The notes under the pieces: model-generated
Database searches by the model: none
What the model was told of the DNA's origin: nothing
What the model saw: the letters and a program-made list of their open reading frames with translations, nothing else
Part shown: positions 17,956-31,822 of the stretch, in pieces
Position numbering within the stretch: the first letter of the stretch is position 1
Layout of the letters: every line of letters begins with the position of its first letter
Program-made: the position numbers and the translations under genes
Assembly: GCA_002842465.1 (NCBI GenBank)
Contig: PHDA01000011.1
Coordinates: 1-64,000, forward strand
Origin: Bacteroidetes bacterium HGW-Bacteroidetes-7
GTDB taxonomy: Bacteria > Bacteroidota > Bacteroidia > Bacteroidales > UBA932
DNA: 64,000 nucleotides
Direction: 5' to 3'

Positions 17956-19086
17956 ATGAATTTTACCATAAAAGAGATTAGCACCTCTAAAGAGATTAAA
18001 GAGTTCGTAAAATTTCCACATAAACTTTATAAGTCTAGCAAACAGTATGTGCCGGTCCTTGATTCGGATGAAATAAGGGTACTCACAAAAAGCCCCTCTT
18101 TAGAATATTCAAAGATTAAACTTTGGCTTGCTGTTGCTTCAAATGGCGAAATTGTAGGCAGAATTGCCGGGATTTACAATCCAAGATCAAATGAATATCA
18201 TAACCAAAAACGTATTCGTTTCGGGTGGTTTGATCATATTGACAGCAAAGAGGTTGCCGGTTCTTTGCTTGCCTGCGTTGAGGAGTGGGGAAAAGAGATA
18301 GGAATGGAGCAGATTCACGGCCCTCTCGGGTTTAATACTTGGAATCGCCAGGGGACACTTACAGAAGGCTTTGAAAACACCCCTCCTGTCAACTGCCTAT
18401 ACAACTATCCATACTATTCTCATATCCTGGAGGAGTTGGGTTTTGAAAAGCAGGTTGAATGGATTCAGATAAAACTAAGAGCTGATGGTGGTGTTCCAGA
18501 TAAAATAAAGAGGATTAATCAGCTGTTATTAGAGAAACACAAACTTAGAATTCTTGATGTAGAGGAGATGAAGAGAGAGCCAAAGTATCTTAACAACTTC
18601 TTTAAAAGCTACAACCAAAGTTTTAGCAATATTGACAATTTTATCCCACTGACTGAAAGTGAAATCAATAAAATTGCGAAGGACTATTTTCCTAAATTAA
18701 GAAAAGAGCTTACTTGTATAATTGTTGATCAGCAAGACAATATTGCTGCTTTTGGCATCTGTTTTCCAAATCTCTCAAAATCATTTCAAAAGGCTAAAGG
18801 TAAGTTGTACCCTTTTGGAATATTCCATATCCTGAGGGAGTTCAAAAAATATGACACTATTGATTTGATGATTCTAGGCGCTGCCCCTGAATGGCAACAT
18901 AAAGGAATATCATCTATTTACCATACATTTATTGCAACCAATCTGGAGAGAGGGACAATAAAGTATGCAATTACAAATCCGCAGGCAGAGGATAACTCTG
19001 CTAATAAAGTGTGGGACAGATATGGTTATGAACCATATATGAGAAGAAAATGTTTTATAAAAGATATTGAATATGTTACTCAGTGA
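17956..19086 (+). CDS. GNAT-fold acyltransferase-like protein
   Basis: A 376-residue protein of the large GNAT-like type found across Bacteroidetes. An N-terminal half (FPHKLYKSSKQYVPVLDSDE, with LAVASNGEIVGRIAGIYNP as a GNAT-like beta sheet) is followed by a second GNAT-type core ending GAAPEWQHKGISSIYHTFI, where the Gln/Arg-rich acetyl-CoA loop is only loosely kept. The closing segment KVWDRYGYEPYMRRKCF is the usual C-terminal strand of GNAT enzymes. Substrate unknown. Its last 14 bases overlap the start of the DRTGG gene (ATG at 19073), so the two are coupled. Confidence 0.7.
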   Translation: MNFTIKEISTSKEIKEFVKFPHKLYKSSKQYVPVLDSDEIRVLTKSPSLEYSKIKLWLAVASNGEIVGRIAGIYNPRSNEYHNQKRIRFGWFDHIDSKEVAGSLLACVEEWGKEIGMEQIHGPLGFNTWNRQGTLTEGFENTPPVNCLYNYPYYSHILEELGFEKQVEWIQIKLRADGGVPDKIKRINQLLLEKHKLRILDVEEMKREPKYLNNFFKSYNQSFSNIDNFIPLTESEINKIAKDYFPKLRKELTCIIVDQQDNIAAFGICFPNLSKSFQKAKGKLYPFGIFHILREFKKYDTIDLMILGAAPEWQHKGISSIYHTFIATNLERGTIKYAITNPQAEDNSANKVWDRYGYEPYMRRKCFIKDIEYVTQ

Positions 19087-19417
19087 GATTTGTGGAATTG
19101 TAAGCGGAACAGTTGTTTCGGGAGAGAGCCGGCTTAATCAAAAGGCTGAGTATGCCTTTGCTTCAGATCTTATGAGTGATGTACTCACTCTCAAGGTTGA
19201 CCATTTTATACTTATTACAGGTCTGGCAAATGTACAGTCTGTTCGCACCGCCGAAATGTCGGATGCTCCATATTTACTTCTATGCAGAGGTAAAGAGGTA
19301 AGTGAAGATATGCTAAAATTAGCCATTGAGAATAATATTCTTATTATTAAAAGCCCTTTCTCTATGTTTAAATGTGCTGGGCTTCTTTATAGTGCGGGAA
19401 TAAAACCGGTTTATTAG
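19073..19417 (+). CDS. DRTGG-domain protein A
   Basis: This 114-residue protein consists almost entirely of a DRTGG domain, a small regulatory fold first named in phosphotransacetylase- and HPr-kinase-like proteins. Characteristic are the central AEYAFASDLMSDVLTL, then LANVQSVRTAEMSDAPYLLLCRGKEV and NNILIIKSPFSMFKCAGLLY. No catalytic residues are evident, and ligand binding is assumed. A second, clearly related copy is encoded at 21209-21541. The start at 19073 overlaps the end of the GNAT gene by 14 bases. It is the first of the signalling genes upstream of hydBAC. Confidence 0.8.
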   Translation: MLLSEICGIVSGTVVSGESRLNQKAEYAFASDLMSDVLTLKVDHFILITGLANVQSVRTAEMSDAPYLLLCRGKEVSEDMLKLAIENNILIIKSPFSMFKCAGLLYSAGIKPVY

Positions 19418-19418
19418 T

Positions 19419-19832
19419 ATGCATTTTGAATACAAGGTAGAGGGAGGAGATTTTACACTGGCAGGATATGCCTCGTCTCAGATAAAAAAGACACTAAAGC
19501 AGCTGGGGGTTGATCCTGCCGTAATTAAAAGGGTCGTCGTTGCTTTATATGAAGCGGAGGTTAATATTGTTGCCCATGCTTACAGAGGTGTCATCAATGC
19601 AGATATTCAGCCAGGAGGTATCACATTAATTCTGGTAGATGAAGGCCCAGGTATCCCGGATGTAGAGATGGCAATGAAAAAGGGTTTTTCAACCGCCTCG
19701 CCTCAGGTAAGAGAGATGGGTTTTGGAGCAGGAATGGGACTGCCCAATATCAGCGAAAATGCCGACTCTCTTTCGATAGAGACAGAGGTTGGCAGTGGAA
19801 CTACTTTAACAATAGTGATTAACTTTAAATAG
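19419..19832 (+). CDS. RsbW/SpoIIAB-like ATP-binding protein (HATPase A)
   Basis: This 137-residue GHKL ATPase domain has no kinase dimerisation helix. The N-box is YEAEVNI (E45, N49), the G1 box DEGPGI (74-79) and the G2 box GFGAGMG (102-108). This is the layout of anti-sigma-factor serine kinases such as SpoIIAB/RsbW or RsbT. It starts 2 bases after the DRTGG A gene. No anti-anti-sigma or sigma factor gene lies next to it, so its phospho-partner is unknown. In this context a role in hydrogenase regulation is likely. Confidence 0.85.
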   Translation: MHFEYKVEGGDFTLAGYASSQIKKTLKQLGVDPAVIKRVVVALYEAEVNIVAHAYRGVINADIQPGGITLILVDEGPGIPDVEMAMKKGFSTASPQVREMGFGAGMGLPNISENADSLSIETEVGSGTTLTIVINFK

Positions 19833-19858: not shown

Positions 19859-21196
19859 TTGAATATCAAGCACTCAACATACCATAGGGCTCTGGAAATT
19901 ACAGAAAACATCTGTATAGGGTGTTCACATTGTATAAAAGTTTGCCCGACAGAAGCTTTAAGAGTTTTCGGGGGAAAAGCTGGTATACATGCAGATTGGT
20001 GCATAGATTGTGGTGAGTGTTACAGAGTATGCCCTACAAGAGCAATAAGGGTAATGGATGATGATTTTAACAAGATTTTCGACTATAAGCACCGTGTTTT
20101 GCTGGTTCCTTCAGTGTTCTTTGCGCAGTTCAGCGAATCTGTTCCCAGAGAGTCAATTTATAATATTATTGGTGAATTAGGGTTTACAGAGGTGTGTGCC
20201 GTTGAACAGAGTGTTGACTCACTTATTGATGAAATCAACGAGTATGTGAAGATTGAAGAAAAACCTGTAATATCATCCTTTTGCCCTGCTGTAATCAGAC
20301 TAATACAGGTGAGGTTTCCATCGCTGGTAGATCATATTATGAAGCTGCTTCCTCCTATTGAAATTACTGCTCAGTATTACAAGAAGAGATTTGAAAGGGA
20401 TGGGATATCAGATAATGATTACGGGATCTTCTATCTCACACCCTGCATCGGTAAGATAGCTGCAGTTAAATCACCTGTTGGGGGTTATACATCTCCCATA
20501 CATGGAGTGCTTAACATGGACTATTTTTACAATAAGGTATATCTTGCATACAAACAGAGAATCCCAATAACAAAAACTATTATCATAAACAGTGAGCTCT
20601 CATCTAAAGGAGTTCTTTTTCCCACAACAGGAGGTGAATCTTCTCATATTAAGGGCAAAACGCTTGCGATTGACGGAATGAAAAACGTGATCGATTTTTT
20701 GGAGATGCTCGAAAATGAGGAGATAAAGAATGTTGATTTCCTGGAGATCAGGGCTTGTGATGAATCGTGTGCCGGTGGAATTCTTTCTCATCGCAACCGA
20801 TTTCTGACAGCCGACAGTCTCAGGAGTATTGCCTCTAAAATTCCTGATACTCACAATCTTGTGGATAAGTACAAAAACTATTGTTCTGCAGTGGTTCATA
20901 TGGACAAAATTGAACCCCGTTCAATGGTCAAATATGACAGAGACATCGAGATTGCTATTAAAAAAATGGAGAATGCCCGCGAACTCAAGTTAATGTTTCC
21001 GGGAATTGATTGCGGTGCATGCGGTGCTCCCAGCTGTGAAGCCCTTGCAGAGGATGTGGTAAGGGGTCAGGCAGACATAAATGCTTGTATTTTCCTCAGG
21101 ACGATTTTTGAGAAAAGGGGTGAAATCACAATCAAAGAGGCTATTAAGATAATGGAAGAGATATGGGGCAAGGAGAGATTTGATAAAAATGATTAA
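19859..21196 (+). CDS. [FeFe]-hydrogenase-like iron-sulfur protein, probable sensor
   Basis: A 445-residue protein with four parts. Residues 19-29 and 48-58 hold two [4Fe-4S] ferredoxin motifs (CxxCxxCxxxC twice). Residues about 80-345 are an H-cluster-type domain. C385, C388, C393 and C410 form a further [4Fe-4S] site (DCGACGAPSCEALAEDV). The hydrogenase motifs are reduced: SFCPA at 140-144 (catalytic enzymes have SCCPA), TPCIGK at 195-200, and ACDESCAGG at 299-307. All four cysteines that bind the cubane of the H-cluster are kept (142, 196, 300, 304), but the proton-relay cysteine is Phe141. It probably senses H2 or redox state rather than making H2. The frame starts at a TTG, since no ATG is available. 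Confidence 0.8.
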   Translation: MNIKHSTYHRALEITENICIGCSHCIKVCPTEALRVFGGKAGIHADWCIDCGECYRVCPTRAIRVMDDDFNKIFDYKHRVLLVPSVFFAQFSESVPRESIYNIIGELGFTEVCAVEQSVDSLIDEINEYVKIEEKPVISSFCPAVIRLIQVRFPSLVDHIMKLLPPIEITAQYYKKRFERDGISDNDYGIFYLTPCIGKIAAVKSPVGGYTSPIHGVLNMDYFYNKVYLAYKQRIPITKTIIINSELSSKGVLFPTTGGESSHIKGKTLAIDGMKNVIDFLEMLENEEIKNVDFLEIRACDESCAGGILSHRNRFLTADSLRSIASKIPDTHNLVDKYKNYCSAVVHMDKIEPRSMVKYDRDIEIAIKKMENARELKLMFPGIDCGACGAPSCEALAEDVVRGQADINACIFLRTIFEKRGEITIKEAIKIMEEIWGKERFDKND

Positions 21197-21208: not shown

Positions 21209-21541
21209 ATGAAACTTAGAGAGATTAAAGAGAGCTTAAACCTTAAAGTGTATTTGGGTGAAGAGTTATTAGATAGAGAGGTAACAGGTGGTTACGCTTC
21301 TGACCTGCTATCAGATGTAATGGGCCATGCTTCTGAAGGAGAATTGTGGATAACGCTTCAGACTCACAAAAATGTGGTTGGTGTAGCTTCTCTGAAAGAT
21401 TTGTCAGCCATAATTCTAGTAAAGGGATTTACTCCCGAAAAAGATACTCTGGAGCTAGCCGAAAATGAAAGTATTCCGGTTCTGGGGACAGATATGCAGA
21501 CATTCGAGTTTTGTGGAATTTTATATAACCTTTTGAAATAA
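21209..21541 (+). CDS. DRTGG-domain protein B
   Basis: A 110-residue DRTGG-domain protein, paralogous to the one at 19073-19417. It keeps GGYASDLLSDVMGHA, LQTHKNVVGVASLKDLSAIILVKG and a closing IPVLGTDMQTFEFCGILYNLLK that lines up with SPFSMFKCAGLLY of copy A. It starts 12 bases after the [FeFe]-hydrogenase-like gene. Two DRTGG proteins in one locus suggest a heterodimer or two steps in one signalling chain. Confidence 0.8.
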   Translation: MKLREIKESLNLKVYLGEELLDREVTGGYASDLLSDVMGHASEGELWITLQTHKNVVGVASLKDLSAIILVKGFTPEKDTLELAENESIPVLGTDMQTFEFCGILYNLLK

Positions 21542-21560: not shown

Positions 21561-22268
21561 GTGAAAGCCGATCTTCACATTCACTCCCTGTTGTCGCCCT
21601 GCGGTGACATTGAGATGACACCTTTTAACATTGTAGCAAAGGCGTTGGAAAAGGGCTTGTCTGTGATTGGAATTACAGACCATAACTCAACACTTCAATG
21701 TGAAGAGGTTGTTAGAATTGCCTCACGGGAAGGTCTTTTTGTTCTTTGCGGGGCAGAAATAACAACAAAAGAAGAAGTTCATGTGCTGGCTTTTGTTGAA
21801 GGTTCAGATAACCTTAATAAATTGCAAGAATATCTAAATAAACATTTACCTCATGTGCCAAATAATCCGGATGTATTTGGTTATCAACTTGTAGTAAATG
21901 AAAAAGAGGAGGTTCTCTATCAGGAAGAAAATCTGCTTATTAGTGCGCTGGACCAGACAATTGAAGAGGTTGAGCAGTTTATCAACTCTCTAAATGGGAT
22001 CTTTATTCCGGCACACATTGACAAAAAACAGAACTCTGTAATGAGTCAACTTGGATTCATGCCTCCCGGACTAAGAGCAGATGCCCTTGAATTGTCTCCC
22101 GGTACAGATGATCATGCATTTAGAACAAAAAATAAATACCTCAGTTCATTCAATCTGATCCACTCCTCTGATGCTCATTATCCTGAAGACATTGGAAGGG
22201 TTTTTACTGATCTTCCCATTACAGATCTCTCATTTGATACCGTAAGAAGTGCTCTAAAAAATAATTGA
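21561..22268 (+). CDS. PHP-domain metal-dependent phosphoesterase
   Basis: This 235-residue PHP-family protein has the metal-binding motifs DLHIHS (4-9), GITDHNS (37-43), an internal CGAEITTKEEVHVLAF and a late SSDAHYPEDIG. Members hydrolyse phosphoesters (nucleotides or small phosphates) with two or three metal ions. Start is GTG at 21561: the frame has no ATG before the first motif. In this operon it may hydrolyse a signalling nucleotide or reverse a phosphorylation, which is inference only. Confidence 0.85.
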   Translation: MKADLHIHSLLSPCGDIEMTPFNIVAKALEKGLSVIGITDHNSTLQCEEVVRIASREGLFVLCGAEITTKEEVHVLAFVEGSDNLNKLQEYLNKHLPHVPNNPDVFGYQLVVNEKEEVLYQEENLLISALDQTIEEVEQFINSLNGIFIPAHIDKKQNSVMSQLGFMPPGLRADALELSPGTDDHAFRTKNKYLSSFNLIHSSDAHYPEDIGRVFTDLPITDLSFDTVRSALKNN

Positions 22269-22270
22269 AA

Positions 22271-22822
22271 ATGAACGAAATATCTCTGCATATAATTGAT
22301 ATCATACAGAATTCCCTATCTGCCGGAGCTTCGATAATTCGTGTTATAATTGATGAGTGTCTTTCTGAAAATTTGCTCTCTGTTACAATAGTTGACAACG
22401 GAAAAGGGATGACACAAGAGCAGGTAGAGAGGCTTGATGATCCCTTTTTTACATCCAGAACAACCAGAAGGGTTGGAATGGGAATTCCTCTCTTCAGGCA
22501 ATCGGCAGAACAGAGTGGAGGAGATCTTCTGGTCACCTCTGAGCCGGGAGTAGGGACAACTGTCCAAGCGAGGTTTTTGAATGATCATATTGACAGACCT
22601 CCGTTGGGAGATATTGCCAACACTATGGTGCTAATGATCTCTGCAAATCCGGAAAAAGATTTTGTGTTTGAATATATTTACAATTCACAGAGTTATGTCT
22701 TTGATACAGTTGAAGTTAAAGCGGTTCTTGAAGAGCTGCCACTTAACGACCCTGCAGTTATAAGAATGCTCACTGAAATGATTGCTGAGAACATCAGAGA
22801 TTTAAAAACTCAGTCTGATTAA
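22271..22822 (+). CDS. Histidine-kinase-like ATPase domain protein (HATPase B)
   Basis: This 183-residue protein has a GHKL ATPase domain at about 1-110. HIIDIIQNSLSAGAS is the N-box (N14), VDNGKGM the G1 box, DDPFFTSRTTRRVGMGIPLF the F and G2 boxes, and SGGDLLVTSEPGVGTTVQARF the closing strands. There is no phosphorylated histidine helix. The C-terminal 70 residues are of unknown fold. The ATG at 22271 is taken as start, 2 bases after the PHP stop. Together with HATPase A the locus encodes two lone ATPase domains, each following a DRTGG gene. Confidence 0.85.
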   Translation: MNEISLHIIDIIQNSLSAGASIIRVIIDECLSENLLSVTIVDNGKGMTQEQVERLDDPFFTSRTTRRVGMGIPLFRQSAEQSGGDLLVTSEPGVGTTVQARFLNDHIDRPPLGDIANTMVLMISANPEKDFVFEYIYNSQSYVFDTVEVKAVLEELPLNDPAVIRMLTEMIAENIRDLKTQSD

Positions 22823-22824
22823 CC

Positions 22825-23517
22825 ATGAAAAAGTTTAAGAAAATTGTCTTCCTTACCGGAGCAGGCGTTAGTGCCGACAGCGGTCTGGAAACGTTCCGCG
22901 CGTCCGAAGGTCTGTGGGCAAAACATAAAATTGAAGATGTATGTACTCCTGAAGCTCTTGAGAGAAATCCTGAACAAGTTTTGGAATTTTATAACGCAAG
23001 AAGACGTCAGTTAAAGGGAGTTGAGCCAAACAGTGGCCACTTTGCTATTGCTAAGCTGGAGAGATTTTTCGATGTTGAAATCATCACTCAAAATGTGGAT
23101 AATCTTCACGAAAGGGCAGGTTCGGCAAGAATTTTGCATATGCACGGCGAATTGAACAAGTGCAGAAGTATGAAAGATAGTTCATATATTTGCACCGTAG
23201 AAGGGGATTTGAATGTGGGTGATTTGTGTCCTTTTGGCGGTCAGTTAAGACCCCATATTGTGTTCTTTGGAGAGCAGGTGCCACTGATGGAGAGGGCAAT
23301 CGAGATAATTTCGACTGCAGATATAGTAGTCGTTGCCGGAACTTCACTGGTTGTTTATCCTGCAGCTGGGCTGGTCAGATATGCCCCTAAAGGGGCAGTA
23401 ATCTATGTTATTGATCCTGATCAAGTTGATATTGGAGAGAAAAGTGTAAAATATATCAGAAAACGATTCGCAATCGGAATGCCGCAATTAGCTGACGAAC
23501 TGATAAATATATGTTGA
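22825..23517 (+). CDS. cobB: SIR2-family NAD-dependent protein deacylase (CobB type)
   Basis: A 230-residue sirtuin that removes acyl groups from lysine while consuming NAD+. It has GAGVSADSGLETFR (12-25), QNVD (89-92), the catalytic H107 in LHMHGEL, and GTSLVVYPAAG. Y56-N-A-R59 is the YxxR signature of class III (SIRT5-like) enzymes that prefer succinyl or malonyl groups. The zinc-ribbon cysteines are largely missing (C113, C123 and C135 are scattered), as in other Bacteroidetes homologues. It starts 2 bases after HATPase B and lies directly before the hydrogenase structural genes. Confidence 0.9.
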   Translation: MKKFKKIVFLTGAGVSADSGLETFRASEGLWAKHKIEDVCTPEALERNPEQVLEFYNARRRQLKGVEPNSGHFAIAKLERFFDVEIITQNVDNLHERAGSARILHMHGELNKCRSMKDSSYICTVEGDLNVGDLCPFGGQLRPHIVFFGEQVPLMERAIEIISTADIVVVAGTSLVVYPAAGLVRYAPKGAVIYVIDPDQVDIGEKSVKYIRKRFAIGMPQLADELINIC

Positions 23518-23632: not shown

Positions 23633-24034
23633 ATGAATAAGATCAAATCCCTTGACGATTTGCGAAAGATGAAGCAAAGTCTGGAGAACGGAATGACAAT
23701 CCGTGAGAACAGCAATTCGCCGGAGTCTCTTGTTCAGATCCGTGTAGCGATGGCAACCTGCGGAATAGCAGCTGGTGCCAGAACGGTTATGAACACTCTC
23801 ATTGAGAAGTTGGAGAAGGAAAAGATTCCCGCTGTGGTTACACAAGGCGGGTGCATGGGTTACTGCTACGCAGAGCCGACTATTGAGGTTAAGGTACCCG
23901 GCAAAGATCCGGTTGTCTTCGGGAAAGTCGATGCAGCAGTAGCTGAGGATATCGTTGTTAAGTACATCAAAAATGGTGAACTTATTGACGGTATTATCCC
24001 TGTGAACTATCAATCATTTAATGAGCAGAAGTAG
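23633..24034 (+). CDS. Thioredoxin-like [2Fe-2S] protein of the hydrogenase operon
   Basis: This 133-residue protein has a thioredoxin-like [2Fe-2S] ferredoxin region: ATCGIAAGAR (C43) and GGCMGYCYAEP (C74, C78). Only three cysteines exist in the whole protein, whereas the related N-terminal domain of HydB (next gene) has four. The fourth cluster ligand is therefore another residue, or the cluster is not assembled. Homologous small proteins precede hydB in hydrogenase loci of other anaerobes. Its stop lies 4 bases before the preferred hydB start, so the two are translationally linked. It is probably an accessory electron carrier or assembly subunit. Confidence 0.8.
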   Translation: MNKIKSLDDLRKMKQSLENGMTIRENSNSPESLVQIRVAMATCGIAAGARTVMNTLIEKLEKEKIPAVVTQGGCMGYCYAEPTIEVKVPGKDPVVFGKVDAAVAEDIVVKYIKNGELIDGIIPVNYQSFNEQK

Positions 24035-24038
24035 GACT

Positions 24039-25832
24039 ATGGCACAATACAAGATGCATTTGCTGGTTTGTGGAGGCACCGGTTGCAGGGCCTCGCAAAG
24101 TGAAGAGGTTGTTGCAAATCTTAACACAGAAATTAAAAAACAGGGTCTTGAGAATGACGCACAGGTTGTTACAACCGGTTGCTTCGGTTTCTGCGAAAAG
24201 GGCCCAATCGTAAAAATCATCCCTGATAACACTTTCTACACTCAGGTGACACCTGAAGATTGTGCTGAGATTATCAGCGAGCATGTTCTTAAGGGACGCA
24301 GGGTACACAGGCTTCTATATGAAGATCCTGAAACCCAGAAACATATCGAAGACTCTAAGCATATGGGCTTCTATCAGAAGCAGATAAGAATTGCATTGAG
24401 AAACTGCGGTTTTATTGATCCTGAAAATGTTGATGAGTACATTGCCAGAGATGGTTATGCTGCTCTAGGAAAGGTTCTTACAGAGATGACTCCTGCTGAG
24501 GCAGTTGATCTTCTTAAGAAATCAGGTTTAAGAGGTCGTGGTGGTGGAGGATTCCCTACAGGTCTTAAGTGGGAAATTGCTGCTTCGAACAAGTCAGATG
24601 CAAAATATGTGGTTTGCAATGCCGACGAGGGAGACCCGGGAGCATTCATGGACCGTTCAATTCTTGAGGGAGACTCTCACTCGATTATTGAGGCAATGGC
24701 AATTTGTGGATATTGCATTGGAGCTTCAAACGGTCTTGTTTATATCAGGGCTGAGTATCCGCTTGCTATCAAGAGACTTCAGATTGCTATAGAGCAGGCT
24801 AAAGATTATGGTTTACTTGGCGATAACATTCTTGGAACAGGTTTCTCATTCAATATTGAGTTGAAATATGGAGCAGGTGCTTTTGTATGTGGAGAGGAGA
24901 CTGCCCTTATTCACTCAATGGAGGGACTCAGAGGAGAACCTACTGTTAAACCACCATTTCCAGCTGAGAAAGGCTACCTTGGAAAACCAACAAACGTTAA
25001 CAACGTTGAGACATTAGCGAATGTACCGGCAATTTTCCTTAAAGGTGCCGAGTGGTTCGCAAGCATTGGAACAGAGAAGTCAAAAGGGACCAAAGTATTT
25101 GCGCTTGCCGGAAAGATCAACAATGTAGGCCTCATTGAGGTTCCTATGGGTATCACCCTCAGAGAGGTAATCTTTGAGATTGGAGGTGGTATTAAAGATG
25201 GCAAAAAGTTCAAAGCAGTTCAGACTGGAGGCCCTTCGGGCGGATGTCTGACTGAAAAACACCTCGACACACCAATTGATTTTGACAATCTTGTTGCTGC
25301 AGGCTCAATGATGGGTTCAGGCGGTATGATTGTAATGGACGAAGATGACTGTATGGTCTCAATAGCGAAATTCTATCTTGAATTCACCGTTGAGGAATCG
25401 TGCGGAAAATGTGCACCATGCCGTATTGGTAATAAAAGACTTCACGAGCTTCTTGAGAAGATCTGTGATGGAAAGGGAACTGAGGACGATCTGGAACACC
25501 TTAAAAACCTAAGCAATGTTATTAAAGATACATCGCTTTGCGGTCTGGGTCAGACATCTCCAAACCCTGTACTCTCTACTCTTGAGCATTTCTACGATGA
25601 GTATCTTGCTCACGTAAGAGAAAGAGTTTGTACTGCAGGCAGATGTAAAGCACTTAAACTTTATACTATCATCGCCGATAAATGTACAGGATGTACTGCA
25701 TGTACCAGAGCATGTCCTGTTGCTGCAATTACCGGAGAGAAGCGTCAACCGCACGTCATTGATGTTGACAAATGTATCAGATGTGGTGCTTGTTACGACA
25801 AGTGTAAGTTTTCAGCAATTTATGTTCAATAA
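24039..25832 (+). CDS. hydB: Electron-bifurcating [FeFe] hydrogenase subunit HydB (NuoF-like)
   Basis: A 597-residue flavoprotein subunit that reacts with NAD(H). It has an N-terminal thioredoxin-like [2Fe-2S] domain (C11, C16, C48, C52), then a NuoF-type FMN/NADH domain (GLRGRGGGGFPTGLKWE near 166-182, NADEGDPGAF, GAGAFVCGEETALI). A [4Fe-4S] motif ESCGKCAPCRIG with a distant SLCGLGQ follows. The C-terminus carries two ferredoxin motifs (CTGCTACTRACP and CIRCGACYDKCK). HydB is the flavin subunit of trimeric hydrogenases that couple NADH and reduced ferredoxin to H2. The start at 24039 avoids overlap with the upstream gene. HydA begins 8 bases later. Confidence 0.95.
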   Translation: MAQYKMHLLVCGGTGCRASQSEEVVANLNTEIKKQGLENDAQVVTTGCFGFCEKGPIVKIIPDNTFYTQVTPEDCAEIISEHVLKGRRVHRLLYEDPETQKHIEDSKHMGFYQKQIRIALRNCGFIDPENVDEYIARDGYAALGKVLTEMTPAEAVDLLKKSGLRGRGGGGFPTGLKWEIAASNKSDAKYVVCNADEGDPGAFMDRSILEGDSHSIIEAMAICGYCIGASNGLVYIRAEYPLAIKRLQIAIEQAKDYGLLGDNILGTGFSFNIELKYGAGAFVCGEETALIHSMEGLRGEPTVKPPFPAEKGYLGKPTNVNNVETLANVPAIFLKGAEWFASIGTEKSKGTKVFALAGKINNVGLIEVPMGITLREVIFEIGGGIKDGKKFKAVQTGGPSGGCLTEKHLDTPIDFDNLVAAGSMMGSGGMIVMDEDDCMVSIAKFYLEFTVEESCGKCAPCRIGNKRLHELLEKICDGKGTEDDLEHLKNLSNVIKDTSLCGLGQTSPNPVLSTLEHFYDEYLAHVRERVCTAGRCKALKLYTIIADKCTGCTACTRACPVAAITGEKRQPHVIDVDKCIRCGACYDKCKFSAIYVQ

Positions 25833-25840
25833 TCGAGGCT

Positions 25841-27604
25841 ATGGGAAATATTAAAGTCAAAATAGATAATATTGAGGTAGAGGTTAAGAGAGGTTCTACC
25901 ATCTACCAGGCAGCCAAGCAGGTTGGAATAGATATTCCTGTGCTATGCTACATGAACCTTAACCACATGCAGATCGAAAACCGTCCGGGAGGATGCCGTA
26001 TATGTGTTGTGGAAGTTGAAGGAAGAAGAAATCTTGCTCCTTCATGCTCAACCGATTGCTTTGATGGAATGGTTGTTAAAACCAAGAGTATCAGGGTACT
26101 GAATGCAAGAAAGACCGTTCTTGAGCTGATTCTTTCTGACCACCCGCCAAAATGTCTTGTTTGTTCATCTTCAGGAAAATGTGACCTGCAGGAGCTTGCT
26201 CAGCGTTTTGGAATCAGAGAGGTTCATATGGTAGAGAATGCTGAGGTTTCTACGTATAGAAAAGATGCTTCGCCTGCTTTGAATCGTGACATGGACAAAT
26301 GTATCATGTGCCGCAGATGCGAAACTGTTTGTAACGATGTTCAGACAGTTGGTGCTTTGAGCGCAGTAAACCGTGGTTTTATGTCTGTTGTTGCTCCTGC
26401 ATTTGAGCAAGACCTTGTGGACTCTCCTTGTACATTCTGCGGACAGTGTGTAGCAGTTTGTCCTACAGGTGCTCTTACTCCATACGATGACACTCCGATG
26501 ATTATCAGAGCACTTGCTGACCCTACTAAAACTGTGATTGTGCAAACTGCTCCTGCTGTTCGTGCAGCGCTTGGTGAAGAGTTCGGAATGAATCCGGGAA
26601 CGCTTGTTACCGGTAAAATGGTGTCGGCTCTAAGATCTTTGGGTTTCGACAAGGTGTTTGACACAGACTTTGCAGCTGACCTTACCATTATGGAGGAGGG
26701 TGCAGAGCTTCTGGACAGGATCACAAGATATGTAAATGGTGACAAGGAGGTTAAACTTCCAATTCTTACATCTTGCTGCCCGGCATGGGTTAACTTCTTT
26801 GAGGTTTATTTCCCGGATATGCTTGATGTTCCTTCAACAGCCCGTTCTCCTCAGCAAATGTTTGGTTCAATTGCCAAGACATATTATGCCGATCTTATTG
26901 GAGTGAAAAGAGAAGACCTTGTAGTAGTCTCTATTATGCCTTGTCTTGCGAAGAAATTTGAGTGTCAGAGGGATGAGTTCAAGGTTAACGGAAATCCTGA
27001 TGTTGATTACTCTATCTCTACAAGAGAGCTGGCCTCACTTATTAAGGCGGCAAATATAAACTTTGACAAGCTTGAAGACGAAGAGTTTGATCTTCCAATG
27101 GGTGAGTCAACAGGTGCGGGAGTTATCTTCGGTGTTACCGGTGGTGTAATCGAAGCAGCTGTTCGTACTGCATACGAAGTATTTACCGGAAACAAACTTA
27201 ACAGAATTAATTTTGAAGAGTTACGCGGTCTGGCAGGTATTCGTACAGCTACAATCTATTTCGGAGAGACCCCAATTCACATTGGTATAGCTCACCAGCT
27301 GGGTAATGCAAGAAAATTGCTTAATGGTATAAGAGAGGGAAGATATAACTTCCACGCTATTGAAATCATGGCATGCCCTGGTGGTTGCATCGGTGGCGCA
27401 GGTCAGCCTCTACACCATGGTGATTCAAGTGTAATTAAGGCTCGTTACGAAGCAATTTACAAAGAAGATACAGGTAAAGCAATTCGGAAATCTCACGAGA
27501 ATCCTTATATAATAAAATTATATGAAGATTTCCTCGGCAAGCCGTTGAGTGAGAAATCACACCACCTGCTTCATACTCACTACTTTGACAAACATAAAAT
27601 ATAG
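25841..27604 (+). CDS. hydA: Catalytic [FeFe] hydrogenase subunit HydA
   Basis: A 587-residue H2-forming subunit. N-terminal [2Fe-2S] ligands are C36, C52, C55 and C69. The His-ligated [4Fe-4S] site is H101, C105, C108, C114. Two [4Fe-4S] motifs lie at C154-C164 and C197-C207. The H-cluster motifs are complete: TSCCPAW (310-316), MPCLAKKFE (366-374) and EIMACPGGCIGG (508-519), including the proton-relay C312. This modular layout with HydB and HydC identifies a trimeric, NADH-linked enzyme (group A type). No maturation genes hydE, hydF or hydG are in the window, so they must lie elsewhere. It may run towards H2 evolution when both NADH and ferredoxin are reduced. Confidence 0.97.
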   Translation: MGNIKVKIDNIEVEVKRGSTIYQAAKQVGIDIPVLCYMNLNHMQIENRPGGCRICVVEVEGRRNLAPSCSTDCFDGMVVKTKSIRVLNARKTVLELILSDHPPKCLVCSSSGKCDLQELAQRFGIREVHMVENAEVSTYRKDASPALNRDMDKCIMCRRCETVCNDVQTVGALSAVNRGFMSVVAPAFEQDLVDSPCTFCGQCVAVCPTGALTPYDDTPMIIRALADPTKTVIVQTAPAVRAALGEEFGMNPGTLVTGKMVSALRSLGFDKVFDTDFAADLTIMEEGAELLDRITRYVNGDKEVKLPILTSCCPAWVNFFEVYFPDMLDVPSTARSPQQMFGSIAKTYYADLIGVKREDLVVVSIMPCLAKKFECQRDEFKVNGNPDVDYSISTRELASLIKAANINFDKLEDEEFDLPMGESTGAGVIFGVTGGVIEAAVRTAYEVFTGNKLNRINFEELRGLAGIRTATIYFGETPIHIGIAHQLGNARKLLNGIREGRYNFHAIEIMACPGGCIGGAGQPLHHGDSSVIKARYEAIYKEDTGKAIRKSHENPYIIKLYEDFLGKPLSEKSHHLLHTHYFDKHKI

Positions 27605-27610
27605 ACCGTT

Positions 27611-28087
27611 ATGAGTACTTTCAAATTACAAGATTGTCACAAGCAAACATTAAAAGATATCTGCACGTCGTTTAACAACAATCCTGGCGAGCTTATAAGT
27701 GTTCTTCACAAGACACAGAGTGAGTTCGGATATCTTCCCGAAGCCATTCAGCGCGAAATTGCAAATAACCTGAAAATTTCGGTTGCCAAGGTCTATGGTG
27801 TTGTCACTTTCTATTCATTCTTTACTATGACTCCAAAGGGCAAATACCCAATATCTGTTTGTACAGGTACTGCGTGTTATGTTCGCGGAGCTGAGAAGAT
27901 TGTTGATGAATTTAAAGATCAACTTAAGATTAAAGTTGGCGGAGTTACTGAGGATGGTAAATTTTCGCTTGACTGCTTAAGGTGCGTAGGTGCCTGCGGT
28001 CTTGCTCCGGTTGTATTGATAGGAGAGAAGGTTTACGGTAGGCTAGAGGCACACCAGATTAAAGGAATCCTTGAAAGCTACGAGTAA
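27611..28087 (+). CDS. hydC: Hydrogenase subunit HydC (NuoE-like)
   Basis: This 158-residue protein is a NuoE-like thioredoxin-fold [2Fe-2S] subunit. It has an N-terminal helical bundle (VLHKTQSEFGYLPEAIQ, VYGVVTFYSFF) and the cluster motifs SVCTGTACYVRGA (two cysteines 5 apart) and CLRCVGACGLAPV. It starts 6 bases after hydA and closes the operon, with a terminator at 28195-28223. Length and motifs match the family. HydC passes electrons between the HydB flavin and HydA. Confidence 0.95.
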   Translation: MSTFKLQDCHKQTLKDICTSFNNNPGELISVLHKTQSEFGYLPEAIQREIANNLKISVAKVYGVVTFYSFFTMTPKGKYPISVCTGTACYVRGAEKIVDEFKDQLKIKVGGVTEDGKFSLDCLRCVGACGLAPVVLIGEKVYGRLEAHQIKGILESYE

Positions 28088-29175: not shown

Positions 29176-29865
29176 TTAAAGAATTAAATTGCGTAATGCC
29201 TGTATCTTAAGCACGGTTACTCTGTTGCGGTCGGCTGAAATAATCTTCTCCTGCTGTAGTTCGGAAAAGGTACGTGCGAGGGCGGGTCTGCTTACTCCAA
29301 AGTACTTGGCAAGTTCGGTCTGGTTTTTATCCATTACGAATGTGTTGACAGATGGGCTAACCGAGTGACATAAAGATAGTTGTTCAAGCAAATAGTGGGC
29401 TAGTTTGCCACGGATTGTCTTAATGGTTAAAATCTGAAGTTTATTTGAGAGGAATTGTGTCTTGTTGGAGTTGTATTTGAGGTACCTCTCCATAAATTTT
29501 GCATCTCTGCGAAAGAGCTCAATTACATCATCTCTGTTTATCATCAGTACTGTTGAGTCTTCTGTTGTCGTAACATCAACCGGGAAGGTATTATTCTCAG
29601 CGAAGAGAAAGGCCGAAGCAAGTGGTTTGGGAGCCTTAATCACCTCAACAGTAAGTAAGCCACCACTCTCTGTAACCATCTCTGTCTTGACTGTACCCTT
29701 TACCAAAATGTACAGGTGTTTGCACGTATCTCCCTGTCTGGCAATGGTATCACCTTTTGAGAATTTATTTACTTTAAGGCAGATGTCCGAAAAAAAATCG
29801 TGTATCCTATCCTGAGGGATAACACTGCACAAGGGACACTGAGAGAGATCAATATTTTCAATCAC
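29176..29865 (-). CDS. Crp/Fnr-family transcriptional regulator, probable HcpR
   Basis: A 229-residue regulator with an N-terminal cyclic-nucleotide-binding-like beta barrel (FSKGDTIARQGDTCKHLYIL, about 35-54), a long dimer helix, and a C-terminal winged helix with recognition region TELAKYFGVSRPALARTF (about 183-200). The cNMP phosphate-binding arginine pattern is absent, so it senses something else. CPLC at 10-13 offers two cysteines. It is divergent to hcp, and HcpR regulators of Bacteroidetes and Desulfovibrio control hcp under nitrosative stress. The palindrome at 30077-30096 is the likely binding site. The exact subfamily is inferred from this context. Confidence 0.85.
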   Translation of the reverse strand: MIENIDLSQCPLCSVIPQDRIHDFFSDICLKVNKFSKGDTIARQGDTCKHLYILVKGTVKTEMVTESGGLLTVEVIKAPKPLASAFLFAENNTFPVDVTTTEDSTVLMINRDDVIELFRRDAKFMERYLKYNSNKTQFLSNKLQILTIKTIRGKLAHYLLEQLSLCHSVSPSVNTFVMDKNQTELAKYFGVSRPALARTFSELQQEKIISADRNRVTVLKIQALRNLIL

Positions 29866-30166: not shown

Positions 30167-31822
30167 ATGAGTAAAATGTTTTGTTACCAGTGCCAGGAGA
30201 CTGCAAAGAATACCGGTTGCACAATAAATGGTGTGTGCGGAAAAACATCAGATGTTGCCAATCTTCAGGATTTGCTAATGTTCCTGTGCAAAGGAATTTC
30301 ACACTATTCTGTTCGCTTAAGAGAGATGGGCGTTGAGAGAGCCGAGGTCAATAAATTTGTTACCGACTCTCTCTTCATGACTATCACTAATGCAAACTTT
30401 GACAGAGATAGATTTATAACACGACTCAATCAGGCAATCGATCTGAGAGATTCAACCAGAGCCCTGTTTATCTCTAAAGGTGGCAAGATTGAAGATATAA
30501 CTTTTGAAGGAGCCTTCTGGACCTCAAGAGATGTTGCAGTGATGGAGCAAAAGGCTACTGAAGTTGGTGTTCTTGCTACAGAAAACGAAGATATCAGATC
30601 ACTGCGTGAGCTTACAATATATGGTCTAAAAGGTATGGCTGCATATGCAGAGCATGCCTTCAACCTCAAACACGAAGATGTTTCTATCTATGCATTTATG
30701 CAACAGGCTCTTGTTGATACAACAAATGACTCTCTGGGTGCAGACGAATTGACTGCATTGGTTTTAAAGACTGGTGACCATGGAGTTAAGGTTATGGCCC
30801 TTCTTGATAAAGCCAACACATCTGCTTATGGTAATCCGGAGATTACTAAGGTTAACATTGGAGTTAAGAATAATCCAGCCATCCTTATTTCGGGTCACGA
30901 CCTGAGAGATATGGAAGATCTGCTTAAGCAGACTGAAGGCACCGGAGTTGATGTTTACACCCACTCTGAGATGCTTCCTGCTAACTACTATCCTGCCTTC
31001 AAAAAGTATAGCCAATTTGTTGGAAACTACGGTAGCTCATGGTGGAAACAAACTCAGGATTTTGAATCGTTCAACGGTCCTGTTCTATTCACAACCAACT
31101 GTATTGTTCCTCCAAAAAGCAATGCAACTTACAAAGACAGAATTTACACTACCGGAGCATCAGGTTTCCCTGGATTCAAACACATTGCAGACAGACCTGA
31201 GGGAGGCTCAAAAGACTTTACTGAGATAATCGAACACGCCAAAAAATGTGCTTCACCAACCGAAATAGAAACAGGTGAAATAATTGGTGGGTTTGCTCAC
31301 GCTCAGGTATTTGCCCTTGCAGATAAGATTGTTGAGGCAGTAAAATCGGGAGCTGTCCGCAAATTTTTTGTAATGGCAGGTTGCGACGGCAGAATGAAGG
31401 ACAGAAACTACTATACAGAGTTTGCTGAAGCACTGCCAAAAGATACCATTATTCTTACAGCCGGTTGTGCAAAATACAGATACAACAAACTACCTCTTGG
31501 TGAAATAGGAGGAATTCCAAGGGTTCTTGATGCAGGTCAATGTAATGACTCGTATTCATTAGCTGTCATAGCTCTTAAACTTAAAGAGATCTTTAATGCA
31601 AATGATATTAATGATTTACCTATAGCCTACAATATTGCTTGGTATGAGCAAAAAGCGGTAATAGTTCTTCTTGCCTTGCTTGCATTGGGAGTTAAGAATA
31701 TTCACCTCGGCCCGACACTTCCGGGTTTTCTTTCACCAAACGTAGCAAATGTTCTGGTTAAAAATTTCGGACTGGCACCAATAGGTAGTGTTGATGAAGA
31801 TATGAAGTTGTTTCTGGGTTAA
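30167..31822 (+). CDS. hcp: Hybrid cluster protein (hydroxylamine reductase), Hcp
   Basis: A 551-residue class I hybrid-cluster protein. The N-terminal cysteines C6-x2-C9-x8-C18-x5-C24 bind the cubane. The hybrid Fe-S-O cluster ligands lie in the later segments [40 protein letters not shown] and [12 protein letters not shown]. Hcp reduces NO or hydroxylamine and protects anaerobes from nitrosative stress. It is a single gene between the operator region and a terminator at 31857-31895. Transcription is probably activated by the divergent Crp/Fnr protein. Confidence 0.95.

Follow-up and report, generated by a model that had tools for sequence, protein, structure and literature searches.

A divergent group D [FeFe]-hydrogenase-like protein from Bacteroidota, with an altered active-site pocket and a conserved gene cassette, as a likely sensor

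Introduction

Group D [FeFe]-hydrogenase-like proteins are suspected hydrogen sensors; the family is known but has received little study. A 64,000-nucleotide stretch of the genome of Bacteroidetes bacterium HGW-Bacteroidetes-7 (positions 1 to 64,000 of contig PHDA01000011.1; hereafter the window) encodes a protein that keeps the cubane-binding cysteines of these enzymes and has a phenylalanine in place of the proton-relay cysteine. A first-pass annotation took this replacement as the mark of a slow sensor. This raises the question of which family the protein belongs to, whether the missing cysteine by itself speaks for slow turnover, and what the protein might sense.

Domain architecture and motifs

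The gene has 445 codons in an open frame that begins with TTG. Pfam identifies Fe_hyd_lg_C (1.7e-21), FeS (PF04060, 2.1e-13) and two N-terminal Fer4 stretches in its product, and the first two scores place the domain identity far beyond chance. The protein and its motifs, all on the forward strand, are as follows.

19859..21196 (+): group D (M2e) HydS-like protein, 445 aa, TTG start; PF02906, PF04060 and Fer4 matches, group D features and tree placement
19913..20032 (+): two N-terminal [4Fe-4S] motifs, C19/22/25/29 and C48/51/54/58 (Pfam Fer4/Fer4_7)
20279..20284 (+): F141-C142, an aromatic residue at the CpI C299 position followed by the first cubane Cys
20438..20455 (+): L2 motif T194-P-C196-I-G-K199, with Thr at CpI M353, a cubane Cys and Lys at CpI K358
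20627..20674 (+): T257, E260 and D272, equivalents of TamHydS S249, E252 and D265 (group D proton path)
20744..20779 (+): L3 motif E296-I-R298-A-C300-D-E-S-C304-A-G-G, with two cubane Cys, the proton-path Glu and Arg at CpI M497
21011..21088 (+): C-terminal Cx2Cx4Cx16C, C385/C388/C393/C410 (PF04060 2.1e-13), a motif also published for TamHydS

Every residue named in the first-pass annotation is where it was said to be: the four cubane cysteines (C142 in SFCPA, C196 in TPCIGK and C300/C304 in ACDESCAGG), Phe141 in SFCPA instead of SCCPA, the third motif ACDESCAGG itself, and C385/C388/C393/C410, which coincide with the PF04060 match. Alignment with the neighbouring HydA further bears out that Phe141 occupies the position of the CpI relay cysteine, C299. 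That inventory was nevertheless incomplete, as it left unmentioned the two N-terminal [4Fe-4S] motifs, all eight cysteines of which are kept in the 25/25 non-gapped members of the clade described below as R. Nine full-length relatives from Bacteroidales/Rikenellaceae records are 77–95% identical to the window protein, and the named cysteines, along with F141, R298, D301, E302 and S303, are invariant across these ten aligned sequences.

Assignment to group D

Group D (M2e) proteins have been described as having two [4Fe-4S] clusters, an H-domain and a Cx2Cx4Cx16C motif, with no PAS domain (PMC8163306, PMC13104023); TamHydS of Thermoanaerobacter mathranii is its sole characterised member (PMC8163306, PMC13104023). 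The window protein displays the same arrangement: two [4Fe-4S] motifs at the N-terminus, four cubane cysteines in the H-domain, and the C-terminal Cx2Cx4Cx16C. No PAS model, the C-terminal mark of group C (M2f), was among its Pfam matches, and the frame stops 35 residues past C410. Two further hallmarks of group D are present: the relay cysteine is absent and CpI M353 is replaced by Ser or Thr (here F141 and T194), and the alternative proton path proposed for TamHydS (E252/E289/D265 with Ser or Thr at 249) is represented by E260/E296/D272/T257. In place of the group A motifs TSC(C/S)PxW, MPCxxKxxE and ExMACxxGCxxGG, the protein has SFCPAV, TPCIGKIAA and EIRACDESCAGG, and the group A model gives it 68.4 bits, where the cut-off is 405.95.

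Residues were mapped to TamHydS via a near match from Firmicutes (L085), which carries 21/22 of the landmark residues published for TamHydS, with their spacing unchanged; thereby TamHydS A137/C138 correspond to F141/C142, S249 to T257, E252 to E260, D265 to D272, E289 to E296, C379/C404 to C385/C410 and D403 to A409. The same protein stood in for TamHydS itself in a tree of 67 proteins, in which groups A, B, C and D occupy separate branches and the window protein falls within D (SH-aLRT 100 for the group D branch). A sequence search of the PDB recovered ferredoxin-type and catalytic hydrogenase matches, with no HydS structure among the 60 matches listed. By its sequence features and placement, the window protein is a divergent group D (M2e) HydS.

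The likeness to TamHydS (PMC8163306, PMC10407848, PMC13104023) extends across the domain order, the Cx2Cx4Cx16C motif and the lack of a PAS domain; the non-Cys residue at CpI C299, the Ser/Thr at M353 and the E252/E289/D265 path with a hydroxyl residue at 249; and the genomic setting, with an HATPase neighbour and a position upstream of a group A hydrogenase. The two differ in that TamHydS has Ala137 where the window HydS has Phe, and Leu where the latter has Arg at the CpI M497 position; moreover, the window HydS has ACDESC instead of xGGC and lacks both the Asp at the D403 position and the Arg at the R32 position. TmHydS of Thermotoga maritima (group C/M2f) also combines two N-terminal [4Fe-4S] clusters, an H-domain and a C-terminal four-Cys motif with the absence of the relay cysteine; however, it has a PAS domain and a Gly at M353, and the tree sets groups C and D apart.

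Unusual pocket residues and a retained, proposed proton path

Within group D, the window HydS belongs to a Rikenellaceae-type clade of 26 sequences, including that of genome G337, which we term clade R. Residue 141 is Phe in 22 and Tyr in 4 of these, and Arg298 (at the CpI M497 position), Asp301 and Ser303 are each found in 26/26. In contrast, the Firmicutes members of group D have Ala or Ser in place of the aromatic residue, mostly Gln or Leu at 298, and xGGC in place of DxSC, with Gly303 in 51/51. The Asp preceding the last cysteine of the C-terminal motif (TamHydS D403), proposed to hold the potential of that cluster down (PMC13104023), is likewise present in 45/51 Firmicutes proteins as against 2/26 in clade R. 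Among the new findings is this Rikenellaceae-centred clade, and what sets the window HydS apart is the bulky aromatic residue at 141 together with Arg298 and DxSC.

The absence of the relay cysteine as such is normal for group D: of 51 Firmicutes members, 33 have Ala at the position, 17 have Ser, one has Asn and none has Cys. Going by the aligned residues, the group has a substitute for the relay path and has not just lost it. A role for E252 and E289 as the TamHydS proton path is backed by published mutagenesis, with mutation crippling the enzyme and the E252V variant losing H2 oxidation (PMC10407848); in clade R, E260, D272 and E296 are kept in 26/26 members, and residue 257 is Thr (25) or Ser (1). 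Because this alternative path is conserved in the window HydS, the missing cysteine is not proof of blocked turnover. The first-pass inference of slow turnover is thus partly supported: it agrees with the known behaviour of group D, as TamHydS, a slow enzyme that reacts with H2, has been proposed to be a sensor (PMC8163306), but its reasoning was incomplete. A sensor role for the window HydS is nonetheless likely, given its group D features and signalling-type gene cassette.

The cassette and the adjoining hydrogenase operon

The neighbouring genes, again on the forward strand, are as follows.

19067..19417 (+): DRTGG-domain protein 1 (PF07085 24.7 bits, just below the cut-off of 25.2; conserved position)
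19419..19832 (+): GHKL ATPase, SpoIIAB/RsbW-like (HATPase_c_2 1.3e-12; SpoIIAB model 5.7e-13, under its cut-off)
21209..21541 (+): DRTGG-domain protein 2 (PF07085 4.8e-7)
21561..22268 (+): PHP-domain phosphoesterase-like protein (PF02811 4.9e-10)
22265..22822 (+): GHKL ATPase, histidine-kinase type (HATPase_c 2.7e-15; neither a DHp nor a sensor domain recognised)
23633..24034 (+): small [2Fe-2S] ferredoxin-like protein of the hydrogenase operon (weak NCBIfam fdxn match, 4.9e-5)
24021..25832 (+): HydB/NuoF-type flavoprotein (Complex1_51K 1.7e-45)
25841..27604 (+): catalytic HydA, group A6 (NF040763 878 bits, cut-off 765; intact TSCCPAW/MPC/ACPGGC)
27611..28087 (+): NuoE/HydC-like protein directly after HydA (from reading the translation alone)

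The HydS gene is thus the third in a DRTGG-HATPase-HydS-DRTGG-PHP-HATPase run, which is followed by a Sir2-family gene and then by the [2Fe-2S] protein, HydB, group A6 HydA and NuoE-like genes. As judged from gene order and domain content, the cassette precedes the genes of an NADH-linked group A6 hydrogenase, and it recurs next to HydB/HydA-type genes in both Firmicutes and Bacteroidota. The cassette yielded neither a transcription regulator nor a DHp or receiver domain; the TamHydS gene is flanked by an HATPase and an AraC regulator (PMC8163306). The literature covered, which was partial, yielded no description of a DRTGG/PHP cassette with hydrogenases, and the cassette may have been described elsewhere.

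Several other genes lie close by. The Sir2-family gene (22825–23517; PF02146 1.4e-41) separates the sensor cassette from the hydrogenase genes, and an unlabelled ORF of 230–256 aa sits at its position in several relatives. Just upstream of the cassette, at 17956–19086, is a gene for 376 aa that matches nothing in Pfam or NCBIfam, and an ORF of similar length occupies its position in many relatives. Beyond the hydrogenase operon, the translations read as a Crp/Fnr-like regulator (29176–29865, −) and a hydroxylamine-reductase (Hcp)-like protein (30167–31822, +).

A sister clade and the occupancy of the H-cluster

A second Bacteroidota clade of 20 sequences, clade H, brings up the alternative that the window HydS, like clade H, has lost [2Fe], with Phe141 and Arg298 filling the pocket, and would be a [4Fe-4S]-only sensor of the ferredoxin/NADH redox state rather than of H2. 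Clade H shares with clade R a Phe or Tyr at residue 141, and the two are sisters with good but not overwhelming support (SH-aLRT 95; bootstrap 93 and SH-aLRT 95 with the trait columns removed). In all 20 clade H proteins E260 is replaced by Gln, Leu or Ile, and D272 by Ala, Ser or Gly; 18/20 have another residue in place of C22 in the first N-terminal cluster. In two of them (L231 and L233, from G881 and G850), the cubane Cys300 is His and an Asn precedes C196; their loci adjoin NuoE/NuoF-type genes, with no recognised Hdr genes. The HydS gene lies among Hdr genes in 18/20 clade H loci, the full order being HdrC-HdrB-HdrA-DRTGG-HATPase-HydS-DRTGG-PHP-HATPase-NuoE-2Fe2S-NuoF-NuoG-like; single loci vary, with some genes missing, past the contig end or unrecognised.

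HydG was detected in 0/20 clade H genomes (three searched at E 0.001, the rest at 1e-100), of which 19 are listed as 93–100% complete and 11 have no other PF02906 gene. Fisher's exact test on HydG in clade H versus 60 Firmicutes genomes gives 4.9e-7, a value that overstates the evidence as related genomes are not independent; the absence across the clade may represent one evolutionary loss. We do not accept the absence of HydG alone as proof that there is no H-cluster, because 23/60 Firmicutes group D genomes also lacked a match at 1e-100 and nine clade H genomes hold further PF02906 genes, yet have no HydG match. The most economical reading of clade H is that its proteins probably work without a [2Fe] site. 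There is a parallel in Nar1/NARFL, a relative of the H-domain that keeps the cubane cysteines and does not need a di-iron site, its fold persisting where maturases are lacking (PMC12621388); however, it is a eukaryotic Fe-S assembly factor.

In contrast to such a maturase-free state, the window genome encodes HydG (on contig C15), HydF and HydE (both on C25), and it has five other hydrogenase-family genes. Across relatives, HydG was found in 47/70 Firmicutes group D genomes and 12/17 clade R genomes. The other five clade R genomes have neither a HydG nor a HydE match, though they keep the HydS gene: G793, G812 and G337 lack HydE, HydF and HydG, and G831 and G848 have HydF only. That three of the five come from a single genus speaks against a gap in the assemblies by chance.

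The same five genomes also keep HydA loci with intact motifs (L163, L164, L155, L158 and L153). Elsewhere, group-A-like proteins of ~630–650 aa with QFTSCSPGW (L167, L192–L194 and L204–L206) occur in genomes with no HydG match, one of which, G932, is a single-contig genome. TSCSPGW in L001/L002 had been considered as a broken cubane site, a reading that was dropped because this motif also occurs in HydA1 chain 7q4v, whose structure is solved.

For the window HydS, the shared aromatic residue, Arg298 and the five clade R genomes without HydG and HydE speak against an H-cluster. In its favour are the maturases of the window genome and the retention in clade R of the two residues changed in maturase-less clade H; along with these, Glu296, Lys199 and Thr194 are present in 26/26 clade R members. 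By judgement rather than computation, we hold it quite probable, at about two chances in three, that the window HydS carries a complete H-cluster, and regard a [2Fe]-free redox sensor as unlikely, at little better than one chance in four. A broader scenario is about as doubtful: the Bacteroidota branch as a whole would have altered its pocket, its HdrABC-linked half would have given up the di-iron site and turned from H2 sensor to [4Fe-4S] redox sensor for NADH-linked complexes, and the window HydS would have lost, or be losing, [2Fe] too.

A proposed regulatory role

We favour, with a probability of roughly 0.58, the interpretation that the window protein is a group D HydS that serves as the input of a regulatory cassette, binds a slow but complete H-cluster and adjusts the hydrogenase. 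Its group D features and placement, the 26/26 proton path, the maturases in the genome, the cassette and the behaviour of TamHydS are all consistent with this. Several points count against it: Phe141, Arg298 and DxSC differ from TamHydS and could crowd the [2Fe] site; five of 17 clade R genomes keep the gene with no HydG or HydE match; the C-terminal cluster of TamHydS is unresponsive to H2 (PMC13104023); and the cassette showed no regulator, DHp or receiver domain. That HydS is instead an electron-transfer or accessory subunit of HydABC is improbable: its gene does adjoin HydB/HydA, or NuoF and HdrA, in most relatives and several [4Fe-4S] clusters are predicted, but its most constant neighbours are the ATPase, DRTGG and PHP genes, and three loci (L121, L125 and L129) have a HydS gene with no HydB/HydA in the fetched flank.

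Under the favoured interpretation, HydS would be the input subunit of the conserved cassette that precedes the genes of the NADH-linked group A6 hydrogenase, and would bind three accessory [4Fe-4S] clusters besides the H-cluster. H2, or the redox state of the ferredoxin/NADH pool, would reduce the H-cluster and an N-terminal cluster via the group D proton path. The ensuing conformational change may be read by the two GHKL ATPases, which with the DRTGG proteins would carry a signal that the PHP phosphoesterase resets, and the output would be an adjustment of the synthesis or activity of the hydrogenase.

More than the Phe substitution by itself, it is the two sister clades and the conserved cassette that merit attention. 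TamHydS lacks a PAS domain, and H2 has no effect on its C-terminal cluster; the other proteins of the cassette are probable signalling partners for group D. Clades R and H form a natural comparison, the former with the proton path and usually maturases and the latter with neither, which may point to the residues that H2 sensing needs and also bears on whether the signal of this module is H2 or the general redox state.
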